Shown piece by piece: positions 1,664 through 45,783 of a DNA stretch of 64,000 nt; the first letter of the stretch is position 1, and the number at the start of each line of letters is the position of its first letter. The notes below the pieces were generated by a model, which did not search any database, was not told the DNA's origin, and saw nothing but the letters and a program-made list of their open reading frames with translations. The position numbers were made by a program, and so were the translations under genes. Source of the DNA: Marinobacterium sp. (GTDB lineage: Bacteria; Pseudomonadota; Gammaproteobacteria; Pseudomonadales; Balneatricaceae); NCBI GenBank assembly GCA_030602245.1, contig JAUWAC010000010.1, positions 1 to 64,000 on the forward strand, read 5' to 3'.

Positions 1664-1672
1664 GGAGGCCCC

Positions 1673-2053: not shown

Positions 2054-2178
2054 TCCGCCATCGACCGAGTCACGCGCCGGCCCGTTCAGGGCCGGCTGTC
2101 GTTTCGACCTGCGCGACGGGTTGATCTTTACCGCCGGCAGTGGCGAGATAGGCCCTTTGTACCATGACAGGGCTGCCC

Positions 2179-2595
2179 ATGCTGACGATCAACCGCACGC
2201 TTGCCATTCCCGATGACGAGATCGAACTGAGCGCGATTCGGGCGCAGGGCGCCGGTGGGCAGAATGTGAACAAGGTGGCCAGTGCGATCCACCTGCGGTT
2301 CGATATTCGGGCGTCCTCACTGCCCGAGACGGTCAAGGAACGCCTGCTGGCGCTGTCGGATCAGCGCATCAGTCAGGAGGGTGTTGTCGTGATCAAGGCG
2401 CAGCAGTTTCGCACGCAGGAGAAGAATCGCGAGGATGCGCTGGCGCGGTTGCGCGAGCTGATTGTGCAGGTCACACGGGTGCAGAAAAAACGGCGGCCAA
2501 CCAAACCGACGCGCGCATCGCAAAAGAAACGGATGGATCGCAAAAGTCAGCGCGGGCGCACCAAAGCGTTGCGTGGCCCCGTGCGGGGTGACTGA
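2179..2595 (+). CDS. arfB: Peptidyl-tRNA hydrolase ArfB (ribosome rescue)
   Basis: ArfB/YaeJ enters stalled ribosomes and releases the peptide from tRNA. The catalytic GGQ lies in [15 protein letters not shown], followed by [15 protein letters not shown], nearly identical to the Escherichia coli protein as I recall it. The long basic tail ([20 protein letters not shown]) is the part that sits in the empty mRNA channel. I chose ATG 2179 ([14 protein letters not shown]), which aligns with the family start, over ATG 2164. About 138 residues, normal for the family. No partner gene. Confidence 0.93.
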
Positions 2596-2616
2596 GCCGC
2601 GCGCCGCCCGCTCGAG

Positions 2617-4542
2617 TCAGAGAATATCGAACTGTTGTACCGGTGCCGGCCTGCCGATGGCGTAGCCCTGCAGGTACTGCACTCCCATCGCCTCCAGCTG
2701 GCGCCGCAGCGTTTCATCCTCGACGAACTCGGCGATCAGCGGAATGCCAAGGCTGCCGGCAAAGCTGATGATCGCCTCGACCAGCGCTCGGGCGCGGGCG
2801 CTGTGTGGCAGCTGGCGTACCAGCGCGCCGTCGATCTTGAGGAAGTCGGCATCGATCTTCAGCAGCTGATCGAAATTGGCGTAGCCGCTGCCGAAATCGT
2901 CCAGCGCAATGCGGATACCGGCGTCCTTGCAGCGCTGCAGCACGCGCAGCACTTCGTCCTGATAGTCGATCGATTCCGACTCGACGACTTCGATGATGAC
3001 ACGTCCCTGCAAGCCAAGTTGCTCGACGCGGCTGATCAGGGTCTCGATCGTGTGTGCGTCGATCAGATCAAACCGGGTCATGTTGATCGACACCGACGAG
3101 GTCTTGTGCGCAAAGGGCTGCAGCCCCTGCTCGATCATGGCGCAGGTCAGATGGCGATAGAGGTGGCTCTTGCGGATCGCGGGCAGGAACTGCCACGGCG
3201 TATAGACCTCGCCGTCGCTGCCGATCAGGCGGGCCAGCGCTTCGTAATGGCGTATCTCACCGCTGCGGCTGTCACAGATCGGCTGCAGCCAGGGCACCAG
3301 ACGGTTGTCACGGAACGCGCTGTTGACCTCGTTGAGCCAGTGCAGGTTACGGGCAAAACGTTGCTGCGGCAGCACCCGATCGTTGTAGATCAGATATTCG
3401 CGACCGCAGCGGCGCGCCTCGTCCATCGCCTCCCGTGCGATCACGACCAGATCGTCTGCCTGTGCGACGCCGATGGCGATACCGGCGCGGGCGGTCACTG
3501 TGATCCGAGTCTGGTCGTCGGTTTCGATCGGTGAAAAGATCGAATCGAGCAGCTGCTGTGTCACCGCCTGCAGGTGGTCGGGGTCCGCCTCGCGGTAGAG
3601 CAGCAGGAATTCGTCGACAAAGGTGCGGTAGACCGGCACCTCATCGCCCAACTCGCGTCGGATCGTGTTGGCGACCTGTACCAGCAGGCGGTCGCCCATG
3701 TCGTAGCCGAACAGCGTGTTGATGGCGTGGAAGTCGTCGAGGTTGATCAGAATGGCGCTCAGCGGTGCCGGGTCTGGCTCAAGGTCCAGTGTCAGGCGGG
3801 CGATATCCGGCAGTCCGGTGATGGCATCGTAATAGAGACGGCGCTCCAGCTCGTCCTCGCGGCGCCGCTGCAGGCGACGGTACAGATGCAACAGCGGGTA
3901 GACCGGCAGCAGTGCGATCAGCGACACCAGCGCGGCCTCTGACAGGCTGCGCCACAGCAGCGTGCCGGGGCTGTCGATCTTGACGTCCGCGGCCATGATG
4001 TAATGGCTGCCATCGGAGCGTGCGGTCGGCACGAACGCGGAGCGAAATGTCCCCCACTCGTTGGTATAGACCGGGGTGAAGATCGGCTGCCGGCGTCGGT
4101 GGGCTTCAAACAACGCGGGTGGCGCCGATGGATAGGGGTTGTAAAACAGGCTGGGCGTGCCGCGCTGCAGGTCTTCCGGCGTTTCGTTGCTGATGATGAA
4201 GTAGGCGTTGCCGTCGATCACGTCCATTGAGTAGACGTACTCCACATCGGGCAGATCCGCCACCAGGTGGTTCAGCGAGTCGACGATCAGGCGATAGTGC
4301 AGCTCGCCGGGGGCCTGACTGCGGCTGTAAATGTCGTGGAAGTAGAGCCCGATGATATGACCGCCGGCACGGGCGGCGGTGAGCAGTGTGGAGCGGGTGC
4401 TGGAGAGCTGTTCGATCTGGCTGGCGCGAAAGCTGATCAGAGTGACGACGCCGGTGGCGGCCAGGTAGAGCGCGAACAGGGACGCGATCAGCCCGCGCTC
4501 GCTGACGAAAAAAGTCCGGTCTCCCTGTGCACGTGTGCGCAT
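2617..4542 (-). CDS. Membrane GGDEF-EAL protein, likely cyclic-di-GMP phosphodiesterase
   Basis: The protein has an N-terminal membrane helix (about residues 16-38), a periplasmic sensor region, a second helix (about 195-220), then GGDEF and EAL domains; 641 residues from ATG 4542. The GGDEF signature is degenerate (TFVDEF), so cyclase activity is unlikely. The EAL domain keeps YEALARL, INMT, EVVESES, ALDDFGSGYA, FLKIDG and AEFVED, all metal or catalytic positions, so phosphodiesterase activity is expected. The degenerate GGDEF may act as a GTP sensor, as in related proteins. ATG 4542 lies just past a 15-bp hairpin that buries its ribosome site; an upstream ATG at 4602 would put that hairpin inside the gene. 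Confidence 0.88.
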   Translation of the reverse strand: MRTRAQGDRTFFVSERGLIASLFALYLAATGVVTLISFRASQIEQLSSTRSTLLTAARAGGHIIGLYFHDIYSRSQAPGELHYRLIVDSLNHLVADLPDVEYVYSMDVIDGNAYFIISNETPEDLQRGTPSLFYNPYPSAPPALFEAHRRRQPIFTPVYTNEWGTFRSAFVPTARSDGSHYIMAADVKIDSPGTLLWRSLSEAALVSLIALLPVYPLLHLYRRLQRRREDELERRLYYDAITGLPDIARLTLDLEPDPAPLSAILINLDDFHAINTLFGYDMGDRLLVQVANTIRRELGDEVPVYRTFVDEFLLLYREADPDHLQAVTQQLLDSIFSPIETDDQTRITVTARAGIAIGVAQADDLVVIAREAMDEARRCGREYLIYNDRVLPQQRFARNLHWLNEVNSAFRDNRLVPWLQPICDSRSGEIRHYEALARLIGSDGEVYTPWQFLPAIRKSHLYRHLTCAMIEQGLQPFAHKTSSVSINMTRFDLIDAHTIETLISRVEQLGLQGRVIIEVVESESIDYQDEVLRVLQRCKDAGIRIALDDFGSGYANFDQLLKIDADFLKIDGALVRQLPHSARARALVEAIISFAGSLGIPLIAEFVEDETLRRQLEAMGVQYLQGYAIGRPAPVQQFDIL

Positions 4543-4544
4543 CC

Positions 4545-4581
4545 GCGGTTCTCCGCTGCAACTGCCGCAGCGGAGAACCGC
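4545..4581 (-). promoter_or_regulatory. Perfect 15-bp hairpin covering the ribosome site of the GGDEF-EAL gene
   Basis: Arms 4545-4559 and 4567-4581 are exact reverse complements with a 7-base loop. In the minus-strand RNA the 3' arm contains gcggagaacc, the only purine-rich ribosome site in front of ATG 4542, and the stem ends two bases before that ATG. Folding would block translation. No T-run follows, so it is not a standard terminator. If the true start is ATG 4602, the stem would be coding. Confidence 0.6.
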
Positions 4582-4737
4582 CACGAACCCTGGCAGGGCC
4601 ATCTGACGGCCCGATCCTTTTTGATCAATACACACACTCTAGCGCACCGAGCACAAGTCGGCCTCCCCCGAGGGTTGGACAGCGCGCGTCTGGTACGGTT
4701 TGATGGGAGACGGCGAATGCCCAACAAAGGAGTCTCC

Positions 4738-5403
4738 ATGCGTACATTGATGGCAACCCTGTTGCTGGCCGCAGTCCTGCCGGCGCAGGCAGAACCGGTG
4801 GCAACACCCGACCGGCAGAAGTTTCGTGCTTACCTGACCAGCGCCGCCTATGTCGATGAGCTGGCCCGAATCGGTATTTACTGGGACCGCACGGTGCTGG
4901 AGCGGCAGACCGGCTGCGACAGTCAGTACGAGGTCGAACCGATGACCTTCGCCGTGCTCGATCCGCCCCTGTTCACCGCGGATTCGATCCGCCCGTGGCG
5001 TGGCATCTGGCGTCAGAAGTTCGGCCTGACCCGCTGCGGTGAGCAGGCGGTCTACAACGTGCTCGGTATCGCTCAGGACGGCAAGGTGCAGATCCAGCCG
5101 CAGGTGCCGGGGGAGTCTCAGGTGGCGCCGATGCTGCTCAGCGAGCTGATTCGCGACGCCGTGGCCGTGCGCTCGGCGCGACTGAGTGACAGCCTCGGCG
5201 AATGTCGGCGTACCGCGGTGGCCGACACACAGATAACGCTGGCCCTTGGCGACCGCGAGGTGGGCGGTGAGGCGGCGAAAAACGTGTGGCAGGAAACCTG
5301 GACCGTGAAACGCTGCGACAGCACGTTCGAGATGAATTTCTGCTTCAAGCAGTCACCACAGGGCGGTATCGACTGGGCGCCGGTGGCCTGCGACGCATTG
5401 TGA
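4738..5403 (+). CDS. Exported Cys-rich protein of unknown function
   Basis: I do not recognise this 221-residue protein. ATG 4738 follows a clear aaggag site 5 bases upstream; the much longer in-frame extension to 4267 overlaps the opposite-strand gene and is discarded. A signal peptide (MRTLMATLLLAAVLPAQAEP) is followed by a mature part with six cysteines (in TGCDS, TRCGE, GECRR, KRCDS, NFCFK, VACDAL), enough for three disulfides, fitting a periplasmic protein. There are no membrane helices beyond the signal. Probably monocistronic. Confidence 0.75.
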   Translation: MRTLMATLLLAAVLPAQAEPVATPDRQKFRAYLTSAAYVDELARIGIYWDRTVLERQTGCDSQYEVEPMTFAVLDPPLFTADSIRPWRGIWRQKFGLTRCGEQAVYNVLGIAQDGKVQIQPQVPGESQVAPMLLSELIRDAVAVRSARLSDSLGECRRTAVADTQITLALGDREVGGEAAKNVWQETWTVKRCDSTFEMNFCFKQSPQGGIDWAPVACDAL

Positions 5404-5465
5404 CGGTGACGGCGTTATCTATACTGTTGGGTAACACATCTCTCTGAGCAGTCGCGGGGGAGTCG

Positions 5466-5912
5466 ATGGCAAAGACAGACACTGCAGCGCCCCAACCGTC
5501 GTCGCGCCTGCGCTGGTTCTGGCTGGCGCTGACGTGGCTTGCGATTCTGCTGGCACTGCTCGGCGCCCTCCTGCCGGGACTGCCCACCACCGTGTTTGTC
5601 CTGATCGCGGCCTGGAGCGCATCGCGTTGCTCGCCGCGCCTGCGCTGCTGGCTCGAGCGGCACCCGCTGTTTGGCGAGCGGCTGCGTAACTGGGAGCAGG
5701 GCGGTGTCATCGACCGCCGATCCAAGCTGGCGGCGTCCGCGGGCATGCTGCTGGCACTGCTGATCGTGTTGCTGGTGATCCGCGAGCCGCTGCTGTTGGC
5801 GATCATCGTGGCCGCAATCGCTGGCGGCGCGCTGTTTGTCTGGTCGCGTCCCGAGCGGCGAGCAGATGCCTGTGTCGAGTCGGTGCGGGTCGAGGGCCTG
5901 AACAAACGGTGA
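5466..5912 (+). CDS. ybaN: YbaN-like DUF454 inner-membrane protein
   Basis: This 148-residue membrane protein has hydrophobic segments at about residues 17-48 and 90-125. It carries the DUF454 signature: LLPGLPTTVFVL followed by AWSASRCSPRLRCWLERHP and FGERLRNWEQGGVIDRRSK. The family is widespread in Proteobacteria and has no settled function. The ATG sits 8 bases after gcggggga. The C-terminal tail is charged and probably cytoplasmic. Confidence 0.82.
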   Translation: MAKTDTAAPQPSSRLRWFWLALTWLAILLALLGALLPGLPTTVFVLIAAWSASRCSPRLRCWLERHPLFGERLRNWEQGGVIDRRSKLAASAGMLLALLIVLLVIREPLLLAIIVAAIAGGALFVWSRPERRADACVESVRVEGLNKR

Positions 5913-6051
5913 CCTCAGCGTATCGCTGTTGGCTGGGGTGAAGCGGATCGGTGTGGCATAATGGCGCCTGTCATCGCGTCGTGCGGGCTCTCGCTGTAAC
6001 CCTCCTTTCGCGCCATCCTCTCACCTCTTTTTCGTGTTCCAGGAATCTCCC

Positions 6052-7638
6052 TTGCTGACCACTGCCAACATCACCATGCAGTTTGGCGCCAAGCCGCTGT
6101 TTGAAAATGTCTCCGTCAAGTTTGGCGATGGCAACCGTTACGGCCTGATCGGCGCCAACGGCTGCGGAAAATCCACCTTCATGAAGATTCTCGGCGGCGA
6201 TCTGGAGCCAAGCAGCGGCAATGTCGCGCGGGATCCGAACGAGCGGCTCGGCAAACTGCGTCAGGATCAGTTCGCCTACGAGGCGCTCAGTGTCATCGAT
6301 ACCGTGATCATGGGACACGAGGAGCTCTGGGCGGTGAAGTCCGAGCGCGATGCGATCTATGCCAGGGCCGAGATGAGCGAGGCGGATGGCATCCGTGCCG
6401 GCGAGCTGGAAGCGGAGTTTGCCGAAATGGATGGCTACACCGCCGATGCCCGCGCCGGTGAGCTGCTGCTGGGGCTGGGGATTCCGGTCGAGCAGCATGA
6501 CGGCCCGATGAGCGACATCGCGCCGGGCTGGAAGCTGCGCGTGCTGTTGGCGCAGGCGCTGTTCTCGGACCCGGATATCCTGCTGCTCGACGAGCCCACC
6601 AACAACCTGGATATCAACACCATCCGCTGGCTGGAAGGGGTGTTGAACCAGCGCACCTGCACCATGATCATCATCTCGCACGACCGCCACTTTCTGAACG
6701 CGGTCTGCACCCATATGGCGGATATCGATTACGGCGAGCTGCGCGTCTACCCGGGCAACTACGACGATTACATGACCGCGTCGACTCAGGCACGCGAGCG
6801 GATGCTGGCCGACAACGCCAGGAAAAAGGCACAGATTGCCGACCTCAAACAGTTTGTCAGCCGCTTCTCCGCCAACGCGTCCAAGTCGCGTCAGGCCACC
6901 TCCCGCCTGAAACAGATCGACAAGATTCAGCTCGAAGAGATCAAGCCCTCCAGCCGGCAGAATCCGTTTATCCGCTTCGAGCAGACGCGCAAGCTGCACC
7001 GCATTGCGCTCGAGGTCGAAGGGCTGGGCAAGGCGTTCGATGAGCCGGTGTTTGACGGCCTCGATCTGACCGTTGCCGTCGGCGAGCGCGTGGCCATCAT
7101 CGGTCCCAACGGGATCGGCAAGTCGACGCTGCTCAAGTGTCTGGTCGGCGACCTTGCGGCCGATGCCGGCCGCATCAAGTGGTCGGAGAACGCCGAGATC
7201 GGTTACTACGCACAGGATCATGCCCATGAGTTCGAGCAGGCGCTGAGCCTCTACGACTGGATGTCACAATGGGGCAGGGAGGGGGATGACGAGCAGGTGA
7301 TCCGCGGCACGCTCGGGCGCATGCTGTTCTCGCAGAAAGAGGTCGGCAAGTCGGTGCAGGTGATCTCCGGCGGCGAGCAGGGGCGGATGCTGTTTGGCAA
7401 GCTGGTGCTGCAAAAGCCCAACATCATGCTGCTCGATGAACCGACCAACCATCTGGACATGGAGTCGATCGAGTCGCTGAACCTGGCGCTGGAGAACTAT
7501 CCCGGGACGCTCGTGTTCGTCAGCCACGACCGTGAGTTTGTCTCCTCGCTGGCGACCCGGATCATCGAGCTGACGCCGGAAGGCGTGGTCGATTTCCATG
7601 GCGATTATGAGGCGTATCTGCGCGCCCAGGCGCAGTGA
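6052..7638 (+). CDS. ybiT: ABC-F family ATPase YbiT
   Basis: This soluble protein has two ATPase modules and no membrane part, as in ABC-F factors that act on the ribosome. Walker A motifs are [10 protein letters not shown] and [10 protein letters not shown]; signatures are [11 protein letters not shown] and ISGGEQGRM; Walker B regions are [11 protein letters not shown] and [11 protein letters not shown]. The linker between the halves is the charged helical segment around [15 protein letters not shown]. The sequence tracks E. coli YbiT through its whole length. I prefer TTG 6052 ([12 protein letters not shown]), which has an aggaa site 7 bases upstream and matches the family N-terminus, over GTG 6034. 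Confidence 0.93.
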
Positions 7639-7683
7639 AAACAGAACCGATGCCGCTGGCTGGCGGCACCGGTGGGGTGGCGA

Positions 7684-8293
7684 TTACGCGTCGGTGAGCA
7701 GGGCGTCGAGCTGGCTGTAGTTGTTTTTCAGCCATACTTTCATGCGCTGGCGCTCGGCGATGTTCATCAGCTCGCGGTTGTTGGCCGCGGCCCTGTGCCG
7801 CACGCCAGGCCGGCGAGGCCCTGAACTGACTGAAGTCGCTGCCGCGGCCCAGATTCTGCACCACGACGTACTGCAGTTCCGGCTGCGGGTTGCGCTCCAG
7901 ACTCCGGGCCAACAGATCGATGGAGTCGGCGCCATCGTCCATGACATGCCAGAGGTATACCTGATAGCCCATTTCATCGAGCAGGCCGAACACATCGGTC
8001 TCTTCGATCCACTCGCCGAGGCGGGTCGCGGTCTGGGCGGCCAGGTCGATGATCAGGTCGTGGTCCGGGTTGGATTCGCCGGCTTCCAGAATGCCGTCGA
8101 GGCTGTCATCCTCGCCGACGATCACCGGTGAGGCGAACTCGCCATAGAAACGCGAGAAGGTGCCGTGGGAGGCGTCGGAATCGAAACCGAGGAACGGGCG
8201 TTTCCGGTCGATGTAATATTGTGCCAGCAGTCGGGAGGTCATCGATTTGCCGACGCCGCCTTTTTCACCGCCGATGAAGTGAACGTTACTCAT
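7684..8293 (-). pseudogene. ParA/MinD-like ATPase, frameshifted
   Basis: The first 160 residues form a ParA/MinD-type nucleotide-binding domain with a deviant Walker A (IGGEKGGVGKSMTSRLL) and GFDSDASHGTFSRFYGEF. Near 7785-7830 the frame changes: the open frame runs into nonsense (RGQQPRADEHRRAP) that overlaps ybiT. The neighbouring frame gives a sensible ending, NNRELMNIAERQRMKVW to LDALLTDA, with a stop at 7684 that fits convergent ybiT. The 610-base span is one base off a multiple of three, so a single-base indel explains it. No ParB partner or plasmid gene is near, so the cellular role is open. Confidence 0.7.
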
Positions 8294-8492
8294 GTGCTTT
8301 CCCTGTTGATCCAGAATCAGTGGTGGAGCCTGAAAAATAGCCGGTGAGCCAAACCAGTGGTGTCAGCATCGGGTCGATCATACCGCACTCCGGTGTCAAA
8401 ACGGTGGCTGGCAACAATTTTCAGCGGCGCCAGCGATTGTTCCCTGCGCGGACGGCCGCCGCTTAGTACAACCCTTGCCCGGAGGCAATAGC

Positions 8493-9824
8493 GTGACCAC
8501 CTTTGCAGATCTGAATCTCTGCCCGGAACTGAATGCCACCCTTGAGGCGCTGGGGTATCGCGAACCGACGCCGATCCAGTGCGAAGCGATTCCGGCGATA
8601 CTGGCCGGGCACGACCTGATCGCGCAGGCGCAGACCGGTACCGGCAAGACCGCCAGCTTCGCATTGCCGATCATCGAGCGTCTGAGCCGACAGCCGGCGG
8701 CTGCCGACTACCACCCGATTCGCGCGCTGGTGCTGGTGCCAACCCGCGAACTGGCGGTGCAGGTGGGCGATAACATCCTCGACTACGGGCGCCTGCTGGG
8801 CCTGCGCGTGATCTCGATCTTCGGCGGTGTGCGTTTCGACAACCAGATTCGCAAGATGAAACGCGGTGCCGACATTCTGGTCGCCACGCCCGGGCGGCTG
8901 CTGGATATGCTGCGGCAGAACAAGCTCTCGCTGGCGCCGCTGGAGCTGCTGGTATTCGACGAGGCCGACCGCATGCTCGACCTCGGCTTCAGCAACGAGA
9001 TTCGGGCACTGCTCGAGTTCATGCCGGCGCAGAAGCAGACGCTGCTGTTTTCGGCCACCCTTGATGCCAGCGTCGAAGCGCTGGCCGAGGCGCTGCTCAG
9101 GGCGCCGCGACGGATCAGCGTTGCACCGCGCAACGCGGTCGCGACCGGGGTTCGGCAGCGTGCCTATGCGGTTGATCGCGCCGACAAGGCCGATGTGCTG
9201 GCGTACCTGATTCGTGGCGGCCGCTGGCAGCAGACGCTGGTGTTCACCCGCACCCGGCGGCGTGCGGACGAACTCTGCGCGGCGCTGATCGATGAGGGGA
9301 TCCCGGCGTGTGCGATTCACGGTGACAAACATCAGCGCGAGCGGATGGCGGCACTGGCCGCGTTCAGCGCCGGCGAGATCCCTGTGCTCGTGGCCACCGA
9401 TGTGGCGGCACGGGGACTCGATATCGATCGTCTGCCGCAGGTGGTCAATTACGATCTGCCGCAGCAGCCGGAGGACTACGTGCATCGCATCGGCCGCACC
9501 GGGCGGGCCGGGAATGCGGGACTGGCGGTGTCGTTGGTCGCGCCCGACGAACGTCGCCTGCTCAGTGCCATCGCCGAGCTGACCGGCAGGCCGCTGCAAC
9601 TGCAGCCGGTGCCGGTGGCCGAGGACGGCCGTCTGATCGACGGCAAGCCGCTGACGCCAAAGAACCGGGCGCCGAAGAGCCGGGCGCCGAAAGGAGCCGC
9701 TGCCAGGGCAGCCGGGAAAGGCGCAAAGCCGCGTCGCACCGAACCGACAGCGAAGGCGGCGCCGCCAGCGGCGGAACCGAAACCGGCCCGCTCGGCCGGG
9801 CGCCGCTCCCTGTTTTCGAAGTAG
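8493..9824 (+). CDS. rhlE: DEAD-box ATP-dependent RNA helicase RhlE
   Basis: The helicase core is complete: Q motif (EPTPIQCEAIPAIL), Walker A AQTGTGKT, PTRELA, TPGRLLDM, DEAD box VFDEADRMLDLGF, SAT, ATDVAARGLDID and HRIGRTGRAG. The C-terminal tail (about residues 385-443) is rich in Lys, Arg, Ala and Pro with repeated NRAPKSRAPKGAA, typical of RhlE-type RNA-binding tails. GTG 8493 follows ggagg by 7 bases and gives the family start TTFADLNL; TTG 8475 would place that ribosome site inside the gene. It unwinds structured RNA in the cytoplasm. Divergent from the ParA-like gene. Confidence 0.92.
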   Translation: MTTFADLNLCPELNATLEALGYREPTPIQCEAIPAILAGHDLIAQAQTGTGKTASFALPIIERLSRQPAAADYHPIRALVLVPTRELAVQVGDNILDYGRLLGLRVISIFGGVRFDNQIRKMKRGADILVATPGRLLDMLRQNKLSLAPLELLVFDEADRMLDLGFSNEIRALLEFMPAQKQTLLFSATLDASVEALAEALLRAPRRISVAPRNAVATGVRQRAYAVDRADKADVLAYLIRGGRWQQTLVFTRTRRRADELCAALIDEGIPACAIHGDKHQRERMAALAAFSAGEIPVLVATDVAARGLDIDRLPQVVNYDLPQQPEDYVHRIGRTGRAGNAGLAVSLVAPDERRLLSAIAELTGRPLQLQPVPVAEDGRLIDGKPLTPKNRAPKSRAPKGAAARAAGKGAKPRRTEPTAKAAPPAAEPKPARSAGRRSLFSK

Positions 9825-9933
9825 CGCGCAGCAACGCGCGCGCAACGGCGGCGGCCGGGCGCTGGCGTGCTGATTGTCGTTGCCGGCCGGTTCAGGCTAA
9901 GGTGGTGTTCGGGTCGGTGAGAAGGGGGCTGAG

Positions 9934-10647
9934 ATGGAACTGCTCAAGATTCTGCTGCTGACGCTGCTGGCCGGGCTGGCCATGTCGGCCGGTGCGTTGC
10001 TGGCACAACGGGAGCATATTCGTCCCAAATGGCTCGAACACGAGTTTCGCCACAGTGTGCTGGCGTTTGGCGGTGGCGCGCTGCTGGCCGCGATAGCGCT
10101 GGTGCTGGTGCCGGATGGGCTGGGTTATCTTGGCATCGACAGCGTGCTGTTCTGGTTCATTGTCGGCGGTCTCTTTTTCATGGCCATCGATATTCTGCTG
10201 CACCGGTATCGCACTTCGGCCAGCCAGCTGGTGGCGATGCTGATGGACTTCGTGCCGGAGTCGATAGCGATGGGCGCGGCGTTTGCGCTGGGCGACAGTA
10301 GTAACGGCCTGCTGCTGGCGCTGTTGATCGGGGCGCAGAATCTGCCGGAAGGGTTCAACGCCTATCGCGAACTGCGTCAGAGTACGCACTACAAACCGGC
10401 GCGCATCGTGCGCACTTTTGCCGTCATGGCGCTGCTGGGGCCGCTCGCCGGTGCCGCCGGCTATATCTGGTTTGCCGAGCATCCGCCGCTGGTGTCCGGC
10501 ATTATGCTGTTCGCCGCCGGGGGCATTCTCTACTCGGTGTTTCAGGACATCGCCCCCCAGGTCAAACTGGCGCGCCACTGGGGGCCGCCGATGGGCGCGG
10601 TGCTCGGGTTTGCGCTCGGCATACTGGGCCACATGGTGACCGGCTGA
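9934..10647 (+). CDS. ZIP-family metal transporter
   Basis: A 237-residue polytopic membrane protein with about eight helices. Two ZIP metal-site motifs stand out: DFVPESIAMGAAF in the fourth helix region and QNLPEGFNAYREL in the fifth. In this family these carry the intramembrane His/Glu/Asn ligands for zinc or other divalent ions; here Glu takes the usual His place in the first motif. The stop is 3 bases from the convergent solute-binding protein gene. Substrate cannot be told from sequence. Confidence 0.85.
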   Translation: MELLKILLLTLLAGLAMSAGALLAQREHIRPKWLEHEFRHSVLAFGGGALLAAIALVLVPDGLGYLGIDSVLFWFIVGGLFFMAIDILLHRYRTSASQLVAMLMDFVPESIAMGAAFALGDSSNGLLLALLIGAQNLPEGFNAYRELRQSTHYKPARIVRTFAVMALLGPLAGAAGYIWFAEHPPLVSGIMLFAAGGILYSVFQDIAPQVKLARHWGPPMGAVLGFALGILGHMVTG

Positions 10648-10650
10648 TAC

Positions 10651-12141
10651 TCAGTGTTGCCAGTACACGTCTTCCAGTACGAATGAGGGGATCGGGCTGT
10701 TCTCCCACAGGCCGGCGATATCGCGGTGCATCAGGTTCTGTTCCGGGCGCATGAACAGAAATACGTTGACCGCATCTTCGGTGATCCGGCGCTGGGCCTC
10801 ACCCAGCAGACGATGTAATTCCGCTTCGTCACGGGCATCCAGTACCTGCTGCCAGATCGCCTTGAACGCGTCGTTGGCATAATTGAAGTAGTAATCGTCG
10901 CGGGCGTAGATATTCAGGTCCATCGGCTCCACGTGCATGATCAGCGTCAGCGTGTAGTCCTTCTGTTCGAACACCTTGCTCAGCCATTCGCTCCAGCTCA
11001 GCTGCTCCAGCCGAACCCGAAAGCCGATCGCTTCCAGATCGTTGGCGATCATCAGGCCGCCGTAACGTCCGTAATCGGTGGGCGGAATCGTCAGCGTGAC
11101 CTCAGTGCCTTTCGCCACGCCGGCCTCATCCAGCAGTGCGCGGGCGCGCACGCGGTCGAACGGGTAGCGATCCACGAGGTCGACGTAGGCGGGATGGGAA
11201 GGGGGAAAGTGGCTGCCGATCGGTTCCGGATTGAACTGCTCACCGTAGAGCGTGCCGAGCGTGTCGCGATCAATGGCGTGGGCAAGTGCACGGCGCACGC
11301 GCAGGTCGTCGAACGGCGCTCGGGCGTTGTTGATGGCAAGGATCATCTTGCTTTCGAGCTTGCGCAGGCGCATGCGGTAATCAGGTCGCACGGTGAAGCG
11401 GTTGCTCACCCGGGTGACGCTGAGCAGGCCGTCGACGAGGCCTTCCGCGAGCATATTTTCGGTGCCGGCGCTGGTGTGCATGAACATGAAGGTGGCGCGA
11501 CTCAGATGCGGCGGCGTGCCCCAGTAGCCCGGGTTGCGTGCGAGCGTGACGGAGCGTCCCTTGTCCCAGGCGACGAAGCGAAACGGCCCGGTACCGACGG
11601 GGTGCGTAGCGTTGCCCGCGGCACTGGCCGGATGCACGATCACGGCGGCGGGCAGTGCCAGCGCGAAGGGCAGCAGCGCATCGGGCTGCTTCAGCTCGAT
11701 CACCAGACGATCCGGCGCCGGCGAGCGGATGGCGGCGACCTTCTCAAACCATTTCTGCTGCGGGTTGAGCGAGTCCGACGCCAGTATGCGTTCGAGGCTG
11801 AGGCGTGCGATCTGTGCATCAAACGGGTGACCGTCATGGAAATGGACCCCTTCGCGCAGCCGGAACTGGTAGCTCAGACCGTCGTCAGACAGGCTCCAGT
11901 CGCGCGCGAGGCGCGGCTGCAGCGTGCCGTTGCCATCGATGATGGTCAGTCCTTCCAGTACGTTGCCGTAGGTGATCTCGCCGGCCGCGGCGGCGGCCGT
12001 TACGGTCGGATCCAGCGCCGGGGGCTCCAGTTGCAGGCCGAGCCGAATATCGTCGCGCGCCCAGACACTTTGCACACAGAGTGCCAGCAGCAGGCAGAGT
12101 CCGGCGAGTGTGAGGCGGCACCTGGAGTGGATCGTCGTCAT
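10651..12141 (-). CDS. Family 5 (peptide/nickel type) solute-binding protein
   Basis: A 496-residue periplasmic protein with a Sec signal (about residues 1-28, ending QSVWA). It has hallmarks of SBP_bac_5: PPALDPT, LEGLTIIDGNGTLQPRLARDW, LREGVHFHDGHPFDA, HPVGTGPFRFVAW and NARAPFDDLRVRRALAHAIDR. No permease or ATPase genes accompany it. Instead its ATG overlaps the stop of an upstream diguanylate cyclase (ATGA), so the two are translationally coupled. It may be a ligand sensor for that cyclase rather than part of an importer (inference). Confidence 0.87.
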   Translation of the reverse strand: MTTIHSRCRLTLAGLCLLLALCVQSVWARDDIRLGLQLEPPALDPTVTAAAAAGEITYGNVLEGLTIIDGNGTLQPRLARDWSLSDDGLSYQFRLREGVHFHDGHPFDAQIARLSLERILASDSLNPQQKWFEKVAAIRSPAPDRLVIELKQPDALLPFALALPAAVIVHPASAAGNATHPVGTGPFRFVAWDKGRSVTLARNPGYWGTPPHLSRATFMFMHTSAGTENMLAEGLVDGLLSVTRVSNRFTVRPDYRMRLRKLESKMILAINNARAPFDDLRVRRALAHAIDRDTLGTLYGEQFNPEPIGSHFPPSHPAYVDLVDRYPFDRVRARALLDEAGVAKGTEVTLTIPPTDYGRYGGLMIANDLEAIGFRVRLEQLSWSEWLSKVFEQKDYTLTLIMHVEPMDLNIYARDDYYFNYANDAFKAIWQQVLDARDEAELHRLLGEAQRRITEDAVNVFLFMRPEQNLMHRDIAGLWENSPIPSFVLEDVYWQH

Positions 12142-31937: not shown

Positions 31938-33065
31938 TTGATCATTTTTCGTTATCTCTCCCGCGAGGTTCTACTCTCCACCACAGCGGTCACGGCCGTG
32001 CTGCTGCTGATTATCACCAGTGCCCGGCTGATCAAGTATCTGAGCGATGCCGCGACCGGCAAGCTCGACGCCGATTTCGTCATGCTGGTGCTGGCGTACC
32101 GGATTCCCGGCTTTCTTGAACTGCTGCTGCCGCTGGGGCTGTTTCTTGGCATCCTGCTCGGCTTCGGGCGGCTTTATCTGGAAAGCGAAATGGTGGTGCT
32201 GCGTGCCTGCGGCGTCAGTCATAAACGGCTGGTGCTGTACGCGCTGGGACCGGCGTTGCTGGTGTCCTGTCTGGTGGCGGTGATCTCGCTGCTGGTGGCG
32301 CCCTGGGGCGTGGGCGAGGCGAAGCAGATTTTTGCGCAGCAGGAGTCGCGCAGCGAGCTTGAACTGCTGACGCCGGGCCGCTTCCAGTCGCAGAGCGGCG
32401 GCCGGCAGGTGACCTATGCACAGCGGCTGGACACCGACAGCGGTGTGCTGGAGGAGGTGTTCGTGGCGCAGCGCAATGCGCAGGGACAGCCGGTGCTGCT
32501 GTTTGCCGAACGTGCCGAGCAGGCCCGCATCGACGGGCAGGGACGTTTCCTGGTCCTGGAGAACGGTTACCGGTTCGACGGTGCACCCGGACAGGCCGAT
32601 TACAGCGCCACCCGTTACGGCCAGTATGGCGTGCGTCTGCCGGAGGCGCCGGGAGCGCTGGAGATCAAAGAGATCGAGGCGCGCCCGACCGCACAGCTGT
32701 GGGGCAGCGCTGATCTGCGCGACCGGGCCCAGTTGCACTGGCGTCTGTCGCTGCCGGTGCTGGCTTTCATCGTCACCCTGATCGCGGTGCCGATGTCGCG
32801 CACCAATCCGCGCCAGGGCCGCTTTGCCAAGCTGATCCCGTCGATCATCCTTTACCTGCTGTATGTGGCCCTGCTGACCGCGACCCGCTCGGCGATCGAG
32901 GACGGCTCGGTCGGCCCCTGGGCGCTGTGGCTGATCCATGCGCTGTTCCTGCTGGTCGCCGCGAACCTGATCTTTGCCGACCGTTTCTGGGAGGCGGTAT
33001 TCAACCGCATACCGGCGTTGCCCCGGCTCCGGCGCGCGTGTGGCAACGGGGAGGGCAGTGCATGA
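31938..33065 (+). CDS. lptF: LPS export ABC permease LptF
   Basis: A 375-residue permease with membrane helices at both ends (about 12-35, 55-75, 95-120, then 275-350) and a periplasmic beta-jellyroll between. Typical stretches: RLIKYLSDAATGKL, IPGFLELLLPLGLFLGILLGFGRLY, MVVLRACGVS and HWRLSLPVLAFIVTLIAVPMSRTNPRQGRF. With LptG and LptB it extracts LPS from the inner membrane. The likely start is TTG 31938. The stop overlaps the lptG start (ATGA). Confidence 0.95.
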   Translation: MIIFRYLSREVLLSTTAVTAVLLLIITSARLIKYLSDAATGKLDADFVMLVLAYRIPGFLELLLPLGLFLGILLGFGRLYLESEMVVLRACGVSHKRLVLYALGPALLVSCLVAVISLLVAPWGVGEAKQIFAQQESRSELELLTPGRFQSQSGGRQVTYAQRLDTDSGVLEEVFVAQRNAQGQPVLLFAERAEQARIDGQGRFLVLENGYRFDGAPGQADYSATRYGQYGVRLPEAPGALEIKEIEARPTAQLWGSADLRDRAQLHWRLSLPVLAFIVTLIAVPMSRTNPRQGRFAKLIPSIILYLLYVALLTATRSAIEDGSVGPWALWLIHALFLLVAANLIFADRFWEAVFNRIPALPRLRRACGNGEGSA

Positions 33066-34129
33066 TCGCCAATCGACTGGACCGCTATATCGGGCGTCAG
33101 GTGCTGTCGGCGATCGCCGTGGTGCTGCTGATCGTGGTCGGCCTTGATCTGCTGTCGGCACTGATCGACGAGCTCGATCGCCTCAGTGAACGCTATAGGT
33201 TTTCGGATCTGCTTTATTACCTGTCGCTGACGGCGCCGCGGCGTATCTATGAGATGTTGCCGCTCAGCGCGCTGGTGGGCTGTCTGATCGGGCTGGGCTC
33301 GCTGGCCAGTCAGTCGGAGCTGACGGTGATGCGAGCGGCGGGCTTCTCGACTGCCCGTATCGTGCTGGCGGTATTCAAGCCGGTGTTGCTGCTGATGCTG
33401 CTGGAGCTTGCGCTGGGGCAGTATATCGCGCCGGTGACGGAGCGGATGGCGGTCAGCTCCCGCGCGGTGGCGCTGGCCAGCGATGGCGTGCTGCGTGCCG
33501 ATGAGGGAGCATGGCATCGGGATGGCAACGAGTTTATCCACATCGCCGCGGTCGAACCCAACGGGGTCATTCATGGCGTGACCCGCTACGAGTTTGGCGA
33601 GGACCGCGCACTGATCCGCGCCAGCTACGCCCGTCGTGGCGAGGCGATGGACGACGGCTGGCGCCTCGAGAGCGTGCGCGAAACCCGCTTCGTCGGCGAG
33701 CGCACCGAAGCCGGGCGGGTCAAAACCGAACACTGGCAGACCGGGCTGACGCCGGAGCTGCTGTCGGTGATTATCGTCGACCCGACCGATCTGTCGATCA
33801 CCGGGCTGGCCCGCTACGCGTCCTATCTCGAGCATCAGGGCGTGAACTCCGATACCTATCGGCTGGCGTTCTGGAGCAAGCTGCTGCAGCCGCTGTCGCT
33901 GGCGGCACTGGTGCTGATCGGGGTGTCGTTCATCTTCGGGCCGCTGCGCAATGTCACGGCCGGTCAGCGCGTGATCGCAGGCGTGATCGGCGGGGTCGGC
34001 TTCAAATTCGTGCAGGATATTCTGGGACCGGCCAGCAGCGTATTCGGCTTTGCACCGCTGCTGGCGGTGCTGCTGCCGATACTGATCTGCTTCGTGGCGG
34101 GCGTCTGGCTGCTGCGGCGGGCGGGCTAA
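33062..34129 (+). CDS. lptG: LPS export ABC permease LptG
   Basis: A 355-residue partner of LptF with the same topology: LDRYIGRQVLSAIAVVLLIV at the start, MLPLSALVGCLIGLGSLASQSELTVMRAAGFS, and a C-terminal membrane block (LAALVLIGVSFIFGPLRNVTAGQR). ATG 33062 overlaps the lptF stop by 4 bases. Its stop (34127-34129) overlaps by two bases the position where the opposite-strand kinase gene would end. No lptB is in the window. Confidence 0.95.
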   Translation: MIANRLDRYIGRQVLSAIAVVLLIVVGLDLLSALIDELDRLSERYRFSDLLYYLSLTAPRRIYEMLPLSALVGCLIGLGSLASQSELTVMRAAGFSTARIVLAVFKPVLLLMLLELALGQYIAPVTERMAVSSRAVALASDGVLRADEGAWHRDGNEFIHIAAVEPNGVIHGVTRYEFGEDRALIRASYARRGEAMDDGWRLESVRETRFVGERTEAGRVKTEHWQTGLTPELLSVIIVDPTDLSITGLARYASYLEHQGVNSDTYRLAFWSKLLQPLSLAALVLIGVSFIFGPLRNVTAGQRVIAGVIGGVGFKFVQDILGPASSVFGFAPLLAVLLPILICFVAGVWLLRRAG

Positions 34130-36947
34130 CGCAGCCGCTGCTGCAGCGCGCGCGGTATCGGCTGCCGCGGTGAAATCAAACTCGCCGGCCTGCTTGCTCA
34201 GCGTCTCGATCAGCGCCTGACAGTCCGTGTCGTTCGGTCTGTGTGTCAGCAGTTGCTCGATCAGCTCCAGACTGTCGATATCGCCGGCATCCAGCAGCGG
34301 CAACAGCTGCCCGACCTGCGCCATCAGCATTGCCTTATCGCGCGCCGCCTCGTCGGCCGAGCGTGCCGGCTCGGCCGTGGGCTGTGTCGGGCTGTCGGCA
34401 CTCGAGGTACCGACACAGCGGCGCAGCTGGTCGATGCCGCGCGCCAGCGCGTCGTCCAGTGACGGCAGCAGGGCCCGGCACTCCTGCGTTGCCTGAGCTT
34501 TCAGCGCCGCTTCACCACGGGCGGCGAGCGTCGACAGCTCGCCCAGTGCCAGTGTCTGGGCAATCCCTTTCAGCGTATGCACCAGCAGCAGGGCACTGTC
34601 TCGATCCTCCGCCTGCAGCCGCTGCCTGAGTGTGGCGATATCCCCCGCATGCTGCTCGATGAACTTGTCGATCAACCGATTCAGCAGCTCGGGACTGTTG
34701 CCGGTCTGGCGCAGCGCCAGGGCGCTGTCGAACACCCGGTGGCCGCTTTTCGGTCCGGAGGTGGCCTCCGGCGCCGGGGCTGCCGTGTGCTCCGTGAGAG
34801 GGTGCCAGCGCTGCAGGCAGTTATGCAGCCGCTTCGGGTCCAGCGGTTTGGTCAGATAGTCGTTCATGCCCGCTTCCAGCGCCCGGCTGCGATCGCTGGT
34901 CATGGCATGGGCGGTCAGTGCGATGATCGGCACGTCGCGGCAGTTGTCGAGGGTGCGGATCCGTTCGGTGGTCTGGTAGCCGTCCAGCCCCGGCATCTGG
35001 ATATCCATCAGGATCAGATCCAGCTGCTGCAGGTGCGGCGCGAGTTCCAGCGCCTGTTCGCCGCTGGCGGCGTGGTGTACCACGTAGCCCTCGCTTTCCA
35101 GCATGCGGGACGCGACTTCGGCGTTGATCTCGTGATCTTCAACCAGCAGCAGGTTGCCGCGGGCTTCGACGGGGCGGGCCGGCGCAGTCGGCCGCTCCTC
35201 GTGTGGCGCGAGTGCGCGTTCCAGTGCCTTTTGCGTAAACAGGTGGCAGCAGTGGAAGTTGCCGTCGCCGAAGCGTTGGCGCAGGGTCAGCTCCTGTCGG
35301 GCCGAGTCCGGTACCGCCAAAGCGGCGCGTGGTGGAGGTGTCGGCCTGCGAGAACGGTGTGCCCAGCTGCGCGATCTTGTCGGCGGAGATGCCGATGCCG
35401 CTGTCGCGCACGCTGATATTCAGTCGGAGACTGTCATCCTCGGTTCGCGCGCCGCCGACGTTGATCTCGACCCGGCCGGCGGCGGTAAATTTGACCGCAT
35501 TGCTGGTCAGGTTCATCAGTACCTGACGGATCCGCAGCGGGTCACCCAGCAGGTGGTGACACAGCTGGCAGTGGTTGGTAATGACAAACTCCAGCTGTTT
35601 TTCGTCGGCCTTGATGTGGTTGACGGTGTAGATGTCCTCAAGGATGTCGTCGAGATCGAAGGCGACCTCTTCAAGGTGCAGGTTGCCGAAGTCGATCTTG
35701 GAGAAGTCGAGGATGTCGTTGCTGATGCCCAGCAGGTTGTGCGCCGAGCTCTGGATCTTCGCGGCGTAGTCGTGCTGGCGTCGGTCGAGTGGGGTCTGCA
35801 GCAGCAGATGGCTGAGGCCGACCACCGCATTCATCGGCGTGCGGATCTCGTGGCTCCTATTGGCGAGGAAGTTGGATTTCGCCGTCGCGTTCTGTTCCGC
35901 CTGGCGCACGGCCAGGGCGCGCGCCTCTTCCAGTTGCAGACTCTTGGTGATATCGCGGAACACGCAAACCGCGCTGCGGTACTCGCCGGACATCATCAGT
36001 GAGCGGGCATTGAGCGTCACCGGGAAACGGGAGCCGTCCGGACGCAGGAACTCGAGGGTATCGGTCTCGACCCGTTCGTCACGGGTCAGCGCCGTCAGCA
36101 CCGGGTCGGCGGGCTGGCGCTCGAAGTCGCGGATGATAAGTGGGTGGAGCTGGTGGCCGAGCAGGGTTTCGCGCTCACGGCCGAGCAGCTGCGTGGCGGC
36201 CTGGTTGACGAACAGGCAGCGCCCGGAGGCGTCGATGACGTAGACGCCCTCATCCATGCTGTCGGTGAGGCTGTTGAGAAAGTTTTTCTCGTGCTCCAGT
36301 GCCTGCTCCAGCGCCTTGCGCTCGGTCAGGTCGGTCTGGATAGAGATGTATTCGACCGGGCGGTCGTGCTCGTCGAGGATCGGCACAATGGTGGCGGCCA
36401 CCCAGAAGCGGTTGCCGTGACGGCCGCGGCGGTTGATCTCGCCACTCCAGACCCGTCCGGCACGCAACAGCGCCCGCATCGATTCGAAGAATTCGGGGCG
36501 GTGGTAGCCGGAGTCGAGCACGGAATAGGTCTTGCCGAGAATCTCCTTCTCGCTGTAGCCGGAGATGGCGCTGAAGCGCTGGTTGACGTAGGTAATGACG
36601 CCGCGGCGGTCACAGATGCTGACGATCGCGTGCTGGTCCAGCGCGAACTTCTGTCGCGCCAGCAGGCGCTGGGCGCGGGCGTTATCGTTGATCAGGCCGG
36701 CCAGCAGTTGTGGCAGCTCGCTGGTGCTGATGCCGCCGGCGGGTAGTTCGGTGCCGGCGTCCCGCAGCAGCTGGTTGACCGACTGTTCGACGGTACTGAT
36801 CAGTGTCTTGAGCTGTGCCTGCTCCTGCTTGAGCTGCTCGTTGGCATGGAACAGCTCCGTTGCCTTGGCCTCGAGCAGATCCTCCGCCGCCTTGCGCGAG
36901 GCACGCTCACGCTCAAGGCGGCGCTGCCAGCGTACCTCGTCGATCAT
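34126..36947 (-). pseudogene. Hybrid histidine kinase of the NO-sensing operon, disrupted
   Basis: Domains in order: coiled coil, two PAS modules, HisKA (H-box SHEIRTPMNAVVGL), HATPase with N-box (NLTSNAVKF) and G1 box (DSGIGI), receiver (LMDIQMPGLDG) and Hpt (HTLKGIAQTL). It is broken twice. Near 35310 the ATPase domain reaches FGGTGLG, then loses the expected next 35 or so residues and changes frame, resuming as RFGDGNFHCCHLF before the receiver. Near 34140 a second indel shifts the frame so that the natural ending (ALQQRLR, TAG at 34126) is missed and the frame runs on antisense through lptG. ATG 36947 overlaps the H-NOX stop. An HnoK-like role is inferred. Confidence 0.8.
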
Positions 36948-37488
36948 GCTGTCGCTCTGATTCTGAAGTCGCCTTGTTGTATTCGCCTTCGGTCGAGCGT
37001 TCGACCTCAATGTCGTACGGCTGCTGGTAGTGTTTGGCACACCCCTCGATCAGGCCCAGCGCCAGATTCACGAACGGACGCTTGGAGGCGTAATGCATCG
37101 TCAGGCTGTCGGCGTCGTGACGGATACACTCGAACCGGGGCAGCTCGGCATTGGGGTAGAGCTTGCGCACCTGCGTGTGCACGCTGGTCTCGATCACTTC
37201 GAGGAAGTCGAGCATCCGCTCCCGATCGCCGAGCACATCGGGGTAGCGGCTGGCCAGCTGCGCGAACAGATACTCGCCGAACGCCTTGACCAGATCGTCG
37301 ACCGGAATATCGGTCAGCTCGCTCAGATGCACGACCATGCGGATCATGTCGCCGTGATCATAGGAGCCGACGGCGGTGTAGACGCCGTCATACTTCAGTT
37401 GCGGGTTCTCGAGCAGATCGTCGGCCACATCGGTTGAGAAGCGCTCCTCGACCATCTCGATAAAGCTGGTATACACGACGCCTAACAT
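36944..37488 (-). pseudogene. hnoX: H-NOX haem nitric-oxide sensor, C-terminal frameshift
   Basis: Residues 1-172 are a well-preserved H-NOX domain with proximal haem ligand His104 (TSVHTQVRKLYP) and the propionate-binding YxSxR motif YASKR (133-137). After GEYNK the frame runs to SESERQHDRR, stopping at 36913. The third frame gives GDFRIRATA with a TGA that overlaps the kinase ATG (ATGA), just what the family and operon predict. One missing G near 36972 explains it. The open product keeps all haem residues and may still fold. Binds NO in the cytoplasm and controls its partner kinase (family knowledge). Confidence 0.85.
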
Positions 37489-37503
37489 GGTAACTCCCTT
37501 TGA

Positions 37504-38601
37504 TCAGTCTTCGTCGGCGTATCGCGCCGCGATATCGACGAATTGTTGTTCTATGGCGATGAAGGCTTCGACGACAGCGGGATCGAAATGGTGTCCCCGG
37601 CCTTCGAGAATCAGATCCCGTGCCTTTTCGTGGCTGAACGCCGGCTTGTAGACGCGCTTCGAGATCAGCGCATCGTAGACATCGGCCAGTGCCATCAGGC
37701 GCCCGGAGAGCGGAATCGCCTCTCCCTTGAGGCCGCGCGGGTAGCCGGAGCCGTCCCACTTTTCGTGGTGGCAGACTGCGATCTCGCGCGCGTAGCGCAG
37801 AAAAGAAGTGTCGGTATCGCCGAGGCTTTTTTCCGCTGCCTCGATCGCGGCGCCACCGATCTCGGCATGGGTTTTCATGATCGCGAACTCGTCCGCATCA
37901 AGCCGGCCCGGCTTGAGCAGAATGCGGTCGGGGATGCCGACCTTGCCGATATCGTGCAGCGGTGCCGAACGGTAGAGCAGGTCGATATTCTCGTCGGTCA
38001 GCTCGGGGTAGTCGCCCTGACGGCGCAGCTGCTCGGCCAGTGCCTTGACGTAAAACTGGGTGCGACGGATGTGGTTGCCGGTTTCGTTGTCGCGGGTTTC
38101 GGCCAGCGTGGCCATCGCATGAATGGTGACCTGCTGCGTCGTCGCGACCTCTTCCGTGCGCTGGCGCACCAGCTCGTCGAGGGTGCGGTTTTCCTATGCC
38201 AGTCGCTGGCGGTGCTGTTGCAGCTCGAGTTGGGCACGCACCCGCGCCAGCACGATGGCCGGGCGTACCGGTTTGGTGATGTAATCCACGGCGCCCGCCT
38301 CAAAACCGGCGGTTTCGTCCACGTCCTGGCTCATGGCGGTGACAAACATGACCGGGATGTTGGCCGTGTATTCGCTGTCTTTGAGCCGCCGGCACACGTC
38401 GAGCCCGTCCATGTCCGGCATCATCACATCCAGCAGAATCAGGTCGGGCACGGGCTGTGTCCCGGCGCGGACCAGTGCCTGTTCGCCATTGCGTGCGGCC
38501 AGCACCCGGTAGCAGGGCTTGAGGATGTCGGAGAGAACCGAAATATTGATCGGTTCGTCATCGACGACGAGAACGGTGGCGCGGGAGTCTTGTTGCAGCA
38601 T
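37504..38601 (-). pseudogene. Receiver-HD-GYP response regulator interrupted by an amber codon
   Basis: The N-terminal 135 residues form a receiver domain (VLVVDDEP, phospho-Asp in LILLDVMMPDMDG, Lys in ITKPVRP). A TAG at 38194-38196 then stops the frame at HRQRLA. The same frame continues with ENRTLDELVRQRTEEV and a full HD-GYP domain: HDIGKVGIPD and HHEKWDGSGYP are intact, so a cyclic-di-GMP phosphodiesterase would be active. A GTG at 38169 could restart translation and give a free HD-GYP protein. First gene of an operon with H-NOX (15-base gap) and the hybrid kinase. Glu (GAG) or Gln (CAG) is the likely ancestral codon. Confidence 0.82.
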
Positions 38602-38682: not shown

Positions 38683-39159
38683 TCAGTTGGACGGTTTTTT
38701 CTTTTTCAGTGCGTCCCTGGGCAGCTGCACGACGCAGCTTTCCGACCAACGGTCGTGCCAGGTCAGGCGTTCGTCGCTGAACAGCATCCAGATATAGCCC
38801 AGCCCAAGGGGGATCCAGGAGACGATGGCGGTAACGAAGCGGATCAGCGCCTGGGTCCAGGTCAGGCGCTGGCCATCAAAGGTCTGCACGCGCAGGCGCC
38901 ACGCCTGCATTCCCAGCGTCTGCCCGTTGCGGGTCCAGAAATAGCCGAAGAACAGAAAGCTGAGACAGAATTGCGCCGACTGCAGCGCGGCGCGCCCCAG
39001 CGGCGAGGTGACACCGCCCTGATTCAGCACGGTGGCAAGGATCGCCACGCAGAGCCAGATCGCCACCAGTATCAGCCCGTCATAGACCATCGCCATCAGG
39101 CGCTTGCCAAACGAGGCGGGGCGGATATCGGAGTAGTCGTAACGAAACGGGCGCTGCAT
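38683..39159 (-). CDS. RDD-family membrane protein
   Basis: A 158-residue membrane protein with the RDD pattern: FGKRLMAMVYDGLILVAIWL (Arg and Asp in the first helix), a second helix near residues 62-78, NGQTLGMQAWRLRV and a C-terminal LTWHDRWSESCVVQ. Members are poorly understood and are sometimes linked to ion transport. The KKKKPSN tail is cytoplasmic. It stands alone. Confidence 0.85.
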   Translation of the reverse strand: MQRPFRYDYSDIRPASFGKRLMAMVYDGLILVAIWLCVAILATVLNQGGVTSPLGRAALQSAQFCLSFLFFGYFWTRNGQTLGMQAWRLRVQTFDGQRLTWTQALIRFVTAIVSWIPLGLGYIWMLFSDERLTWHDRWSESCVVQLPRDALKKKKPSN

Positions 39160-44688: not shown

Positions 44689-45783
44689 ATGGAAATCAAT
44701 CCGATACTGAACAGCCTCAAGGATATCGGCGAGCGTACCGAGCTGCTGCGCACCTATCTCGAGTACGACACCAAGAAGGAACGTCTCGAAGAGGTGCAAC
44801 GCGAGCTCGAGGATCCGGCGGTCTGGAACGATCCGGACAACGCTCAGCAGTTGGGGCGTGAGCGTGCCAGCCTCGAGGCGGTCGTGGAAACCATCGATGA
44901 TCTGACGCAGGGTGTCGCCGATGCCCGTGAGCTGCTGGATCTGGCCGTCGAAGAGCAGGACGAGGATACCGTCGCCGAGGTGGAAGCCGAGGTTGAGGCA
45001 CTGACCGAAAAGCTGACTCAGCTCGAGTTTCGCCGCATGTTCTCCGGCGAAGCGGACGCCAACAACGCCTATGTCGATATTCAGGCGGGCTCCGGCGGTA
45101 CCGAAGCGCAGGACTGGGCCAACATGATGCTGCGTATGTACCTGCGCTGGGGTGAGGCCAAGGGCTTCAAGACCGAGCTGATCGAAGTCTCGGCCGGTGA
45201 AGTGGCCGGTATCAAGTCCGCCACCATTCGCTTCGAGGGCGAGTATGCGTTCGGCTGGCTGCGCACCGAAACCGGCGTGCACCGTCTTGTGCGCAAATCG
45301 CCATTTGACTCCGGCGGCCGTCGTCACACCTCGTTCGCATCCGTTTTCGTCTCCCCCGAGATCGATGACAACGTTGAGATCGAGATCAACCCGGCCGACC
45401 TGCGTGTCGATGTTTACCGTGCATCCGGTGCCGGTGGTCAGCACGTTAACCGTACCGAGTCCGCGGTACGTATTACCCACGAACCGTCCGGTATCGTGGT
45501 GCAGAGTCAGTCCGCCCGCTCGCAGCATCAGAACCGCGATGTCTGTATGAAACAGCTGCGTGCGAAGCTGTATGAGATGGAGATGCTGAAACGGCGTGAA
45601 GCGGCGCAGGAGCTGGAAGACTCCAAGGCTGATATCGGCTGGGGCAGCCAGATCCGTTCCTACGTGCTCGACGACCAGCGCATCAAGGATCTGCGTACCG
45701 GTGTGCAGACCTCCAACTGCGATCGCGTGCTCGACGGCGATCTCGACCCGTTTATCGTAGCCAGCCTCAAGGCCGGGCTCTGA
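44689..45783 (+). CDS. prfB: Peptide chain release factor 2, without the programmed frameshift
   Basis: A 364-residue RF2 with the SPF stop-recognition motif ([11 protein letters not shown]) and the GGQ catalytic loop ([12 protein letters not shown]). In E. coli, codon 26 is an in-frame UGA requiring a +1 frameshift that autoregulates RF2. Here the same spot reads TAT CTC GAG TAC GAC (44755-44769; [12 protein letters not shown]), with no stop and no slippery CTTTGA. So translation is uninterrupted and autoregulation is lost. lysS follows after 37 bases, the conserved gene pair. Confidence 0.96.

Follow-up and report, generated by a model that had tools for sequence, protein, structure and literature searches.

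The 64,000-nucleotide stretch of a Marinobacterium sp. genome analysed here (hereafter the window) carries a broken operon for a haem-nitric oxide (H-NOX) sensor, a hybrid histidine kinase and a cyclic-di-GMP (c-di-GMP) phosphodiesterase, and comparison with related sequences indicates, with a probability of roughly 0.85, a real and recent inactivation of this operon with loss of the relay that it would have encoded. The source genome is a draft of 2,386,350 bases in 26 contigs with 90.67% completeness, in which the window corresponds to contig 20.

The operon lies on the minus strand from 38601 to about 34126 as fragments of three genes, encoding a receiver (REC)-HD-GYP response regulator, an H-NOX protein and a hybrid PAS kinase, to whose reading frames domains were assigned by Pfam search. 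Together with the genes on either side, its parts are as follows.

38194-38601, minus strand: receiver part (135 aa) of the REC-HD-GYP response regulator, ended by a TAG at 38194-38196 (Pfam Response_reg; congener ORFs of 365-379 aa cross this codon)
37504-38193, minus strand: HD-GYP part behind the TAG, open from GTG 38169 (Pfam HD_5 and HD, 37504-38169)
36913-37488, minus strand: H-NOX gene, an ORF of 191 aa with a whole HNOB domain and a stop displaced into the kinase gene (Pfam HNOB)
35305-36947, minus strand: 5' part of the kinase gene, in frame, with PAS, PAS, HisKA and the start of HATPase_c (Pfam, congener alignment)
35300-35312, minus strand: deletion junction in the kinase gene, where the G2 end of HATPase_c and the sequence after it are missing (congener alignment)
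34145-35300, minus strand: 3' part of the kinase gene, in another frame, with REC, Hpt and a C-terminal segment (Pfam Response_reg and Hpt; congeners)
31938-34129, plus strand: lptF and lptG, intact and convergent to the cassette, forming one cassette edge (NCBIfam equivalogs TIGR04407 and TIGR04408)
38686-39159, minus strand: intact gene for an RDD-family protein, the other cassette edge (Pfam RDD)

The identity of the sensor is well marked, with an HNOB (PF07700) match of 135.9 bits over residues 3-162 against a curated cut-off of 25.5, solved structural relatives among its matches (best 6ocv, E 1.9e-45), and a proximal haem histidine in ETSVHTQVRKLYP that aligns with the histidine of the two solved relatives displayed. 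The Y-x-S-x-R motif is present as YASKR. Haem binding is predicted from sequence, with NO as the probable ligand.

Intact counterparts of the operon were found within the genus. A DNA search of 57 genomes, the source included, gave long colinear matches in three congeners, and the same species supplied the best three of 17 loci in a protein search of named genomes with H-NOX. In these three of seven congeners (M. litorale DSM 23545, M. lutimaris DSM 22012 and M. mangrovicola DSM 27697), the operon occupies the same locus, with the gene order and domains of the window operon and the same neighbours (lptFG; RDD, Sel1 and glyoxalase genes), but its frames are whole, whereas the window operon bears four lesions. 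The intact forms encode a REC-HD-GYP protein of 365-379 aa, an H-NOX protein of 181-182 aa and a kinase of 1018-1063 aa, the H-NOX and kinase genes overlapping by four bases. Identity to M. litorale amounts to 78% for REC-HD-GYP, 81% for H-NOX, 71% for the 5' part of the kinase and 48.5% for its 3' part. Among the 17 H-NOX loci, H-NOX is preceded on its own strand by an HD-GYP match only at the three of Marinobacterium; at three Pseudoalteromonas loci there is a weak match on the opposite strand. A kinase core with receiver follows H-NOX in the three Marinobacterium and in seven others (L031, L032, L033, L035-L038) and is absent at the remaining seven of the 17, as surveyed by tblastn (E 1e-6, queries from M. 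litorale), a search that more distant kinases would escape.

Alignment with the three intact operons confirmed all four lesions that a prior sequence-only reading had proposed and placed them at 38194-38196, ~36970, ~35305 and ~34147, while Pfam bore out the domains that it had named (REC-HD-GYP, H-NOX and a PAS-hybrid kinase with receiver and Hpt). In the REC-HD-GYP gene, an in-frame TAG at 38194-38196 stands between receiver and HD-GYP domain, where the same frame is open in the congeners; the two domains therefore do not share a single open frame here, although HD_5 is recognisable and both the HD and GYP motifs are kept (HDIGK and HHEKWDGSGYP). Near 36970, a single gap column corresponds to a one-base frame change after about residue 172 of H-NOX, at a site that is a T run in the congeners and where both slippage and base-calling errors occur. 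This lesion falls behind the HNOB domain and alters only the tail, lengthening the ORF to 191 aa against 181-182 aa; the claim of a lesion in every gene is thus literally true, but too strong for H-NOX. The kinase has suffered a net loss of about 359 nt together with a frame change near 35305, within its ATPase domain, a figure obtained by arithmetic (118 codons plus 5 nt of overlap) against M. litorale, M. lutimaris and M. mangrovicola differing in length there. HATPase_c is consequently matched at profile positions 1-76 of 111 only, the 5' ORF continues out of frame to 35139 (with PAS, HisKA and HATPase_c matches within 35139-37040), and REC and Hpt lie in another frame, so that the hallmark of an active hybrid kinase, an uninterrupted frame from a full-length HATPase_c into REC and Hpt, is absent. 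A short direct repeat may have lain at the ends of this deletion. At the 3' end of the kinase gene, a second frame change near 34147 precedes the stop expected from the congeners. The assertion that all catalytic and haem residues are otherwise intact proved nearly right: the phospho-accepting histidine is kept, but the residue two before it is Arg (codon 35856-35858) instead of the Met of the congeners (N-M-S-H). The lesions are thus of mixed kinds (nonsense, large deletion and small frame changes), and the two weighty ones are those of the kinase, whose ATPase end is gone, and of the phosphodiesterase, which is split.

The remainder of the genus places this operon in a wider pattern, the H-NOX family being present in four of eight genus genomes with the source genome included. 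In the four congeners that lack it, DNA matches to lptFG and the RDD gene end 41-54 nt apart (18-50 nt for protein alignments), leaving an empty site; where present, the cassette sits invariably between lptG and the RDD gene and, given these empty sites, is dispensable in the genus. Neither gain nor loss of the cassette was favoured, as a tree built from four proteins of the flanks (1157 columns) does not resolve the base, with supports of 0.51 and 0.81. Sequence matching 311-11688 of the window extends across about 19.8 kb in M. litorale, and in M. lutimaris the matches to 357-9824 occupy about 48 kb; between neighbours that are conserved, this small genome is packed more tightly than those two, which may reflect loss here or gain there.

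Within the source genome, DNA search revealed no second copy of the operon, the best other matches being a hybrid kinase/REC-HD-GYP pair on contig 2 that has no H-NOX match. This pair is intact (L045:4705-9020, G000:C2) and consists of an MHYT-PAS hybrid kinase of 1107 aa and a REC-HD-GYP protein of 330 aa, the latter representing the sole other HD-GYP match in the genome. HD-GYP (PF13487) matches thus number two here, the broken gene included, compared with 5-10 per genome in the seven congeners, and GGDEF matches number 45 against 42-78 in congeners, in a genome of 2.39 Mb against 3.5-5.6 Mb. In this descriptive comparison of eight genomes, HD-GYP proteins are few here and GGDEF proteins are not.

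Errors of assembly or sequencing in an operon that is intact in the organism would offer an alternative to decay, as the sequence-only reading had itself allowed, and such an explanation draws on the draft state of the genome, on the small size (one or two bases) of two of the four lesions, and on the apparent breakage of one more gene in the window and of two GGDEF genes elsewhere. Errors should scatter, yet four of the five lesions found in the congener-supported genes of the window sit within 4.5 kb of the 64 kb (binomial P = 1.1e-4 under uniform placement, or 0.0013 when the H-NOX tail lesion is set aside), although both values are optimistic, being post hoc, for an operon chosen for its lesions and with placement-free parts of the window left out. 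These counts come from a census of congener ORFs over the window, with 50 placements, three of them inside the operon, which covers only stretches with such placements (excluding, for example, 48.6-55.4 kb) and passed over the H-NOX tail lesion, beyond the aligned part, as it may other lesions at gene ends. Ten placements were flagged, and three proved real breaks: the kinase, REC-HD-GYP and a ParA-like gene at 7699-8293, the one further broken gene among the 47 placements outside the operon. The other seven were discounted: each lies over an open gene, as a shadow ORF or an upstream extension, and these genes include prfB, lysS, rsgA, orn and a glyoxalase gene. Of these, prfB (release factor 2, 44689-45783) is open from its start and does not contain the inner stop of the programmed frameshift that E. 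coli prfB has. The gene at 7699-8293, the only broken window gene found outside the operon, resembles a 228-aa congener protein and shows a frame change with about 25 residues missing near 7784-7791; by eye it is ParA/MinD-like, with Pfam CbiA just below cut-off in the congener.

The kinds of lesion and the rest of the genome also speak against error, given that a loss of ~359 nt and an in-frame TAG are atypical of indel errors. No inner stop was seen inside the domain in any of the 53 ABC-ATPase (PF00005, ABC_tran) or 33 receiver (PF00072) matches of the genome, and a rough gene call over 464 kb of it (the window and 20 other stretches), which rests on codon usage and not on homology, gave a coding fraction of 0.885 and a mean gene of 345 aa, resembling the 0.851-0.879 and 297-402 aa of stretches from three congeners. 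The 45 GGDEF matches represent 43 places, two of which gave two rows each; one match contains an inner TGA, another a frame change, and a further one has a short frame of 184 aa. The two GGDEF genes that appear broken, L069 (G000:C12:14281-14757) and L068 (G000:C1:4452-4930), carry an inner TGA in one and, in the other, a frame change inside the domain with an apparent short tandem duplication; they fit wider decay and would fit scattered errors too. On lesion clustering, lesion types and these genome controls, error was rejected as the main reading and appears unlikely from the sequence data.

Recent decay, by contrast with error, agrees with the intact orthologues of three congeners, the mixed lesion kinds, the clean neighbourhood and an unaccelerated rate of protein change, in line with what had been proposed. 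Amino-acid changes unique to the window lineage or to M. litorale stand at 85:88 in the operon and at 315:245 in 11 other window genes (Fisher P = 0.12), and with no acceleration in the operon the decay looks recent. Of the unique changes in the operon, a share of 0.60 falls at codon positions 1+2 in the window against 0.46 in M. litorale (P = 2e-4), but the other 11 window genes show a raised share as well (0.45 against 0.39, P = 0.005), so that an extra relaxation of constraint in the operon is merely suggestive; a signal this weak fits decay that we infer to be recent.

In its intact form, the operon would tie H-NOX gas sensing to c-di-GMP breakdown, by a mechanism deduced from its domains and from studied H-NOX/kinase pairs, including the direction of signalling. 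On binding NO, H-NOX would modulate the hybrid kinase of the same operon, and phosphate would pass from the kinase histidine through the REC and Hpt domains of the kinase to the receiver of the HD-GYP enzyme. In the window, a kinase deprived of its ATPase end and of a continuous frame should not feed this relay, and the phosphodiesterase is cut between receiver and catalytic domain; given these two lesions, the relay should not run and its function has presumably been lost. What could still be produced is the H-NOX domain, perhaps along with a receiver and an HD-GYP domain as separate products, but these would be uncoupled.

Whether such pieces retain separate uses, as a stand-alone H-NOX, a receiver and a restarted, unregulated HD-GYP phosphodiesterase, with the contig-2 MHYT-PAS hybrid kinase as a possible new partner, deserves consideration in view of the intact HNOB and HD-GYP domains and motifs, the unaccelerated amino-acid change and the presence of that intact pair. 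This is nevertheless very improbable: the cognate kinase is without part of its ATPase domain, no ribosome site was seen by eye 5-10 nt ahead of GTG 38169, the kinase on contig 2 comes with an MHYT input and a REC-HD-GYP protein of its own, and slow change is equally explained by recent decay. Read-through of the TAG by recoding or a suppressor, producing a whole REC-HD-GYP protein, would accord with the continuation of HD-GYP in the same frame with conserved sequence, but TAG ends one of 28 window genes (TGA 21, TAA 6, TAG 1) and thus works as a stop here, no inner TAG occurs in other real genes of the window census, and the kinase is broken regardless; we regard it as scarcely credible, even with an estimate that can overlap the other readings. 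Inactivation of the whole relay accordingly remains the preferred reading.

The operon is a broken member of an already known operon kind. As in the HnoX-HnoK-HnoB-HnoD network of Shewanella oneidensis and Vibrio cholerae, H-NOX stands beside a histidine kinase, and both systems use response regulators acting on c-di-GMP. The outputs of that network are the EAL protein HnoB and HnoD, the latter described as a degenerate HD-GYP in one review and as an inactive DGC in another (PMC8846402, PMC8738867, PMC6335343), with PMC6335343 giving HnoB as an EAL protein and HnoD as a degenerate HD-GYP protein. The window operon, unlike this network, combines a single HD-GYP regulator that retains its motifs with a kinase of hybrid type bearing REC and Hpt, and neither EAL-type HnoB nor HnoD was found in its gene cluster by Pfam, with no EAL domain in the operon. 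The suggested likeness to HnoX/HnoK therefore holds for the pairing of H-NOX with a histidine kinase and not for the kinase architecture or the HD-GYP partner. Excerpts of other studies describe pairing of H-NOX with the kinase HahK in Vibrio fischeri, where NO inhibits biofilm through HnoX (PMC12369376), and with the hybrid kinase HqsK in V. parahaemolyticus (PMC8738867). Both systems, so described, have H-NOX acting on a co-encoded or partner kinase, like the scheme proposed for the window operon. By description and not by sequence, HahK (which we take to be a hybrid kinase) and HqsK differ from it in signalling to biofilm or quorum-sensing regulators (SypF, LuxU), an HD-GYP partner being unmentioned in those excerpts. 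Going by titles and the opening lines of abstracts, the papers retrieved on H-NOX pseudogenes, Marinobacterium H-NOX and Marinobacterium genome reduction included no such case. Within the window, no tRNAs were found in the 64 kb, and a search for repeats in the operon led to nothing of use.

Altogether, the locus would represent a dispensable NO/c-di-GMP cassette caught mid-loss, in a small genome with few HD-GYP proteins. A more speculative and unlikely extension views the locus as a modular NO-to-c-di-GMP cassette recorded in the course of its loss, intact in three congeners, missing at the same junction in four and broken in one genome, in which the H-NOX sensor domain outlasts kinase and output and may persist as an orphan gas sensor acting elsewhere, for example on the remaining hybrid kinase/HD-GYP pair. 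No new mechanism is revealed, and what is seen is ordinary gene decay caught part-way; as an example of a whole gas-sensing two-component relay abandoned, with relatives intact, broken and empty at a single locus, it could serve to study which component is the first to fail and whether loss of the cassette accompanies shrinkage of the c-di-GMP network.
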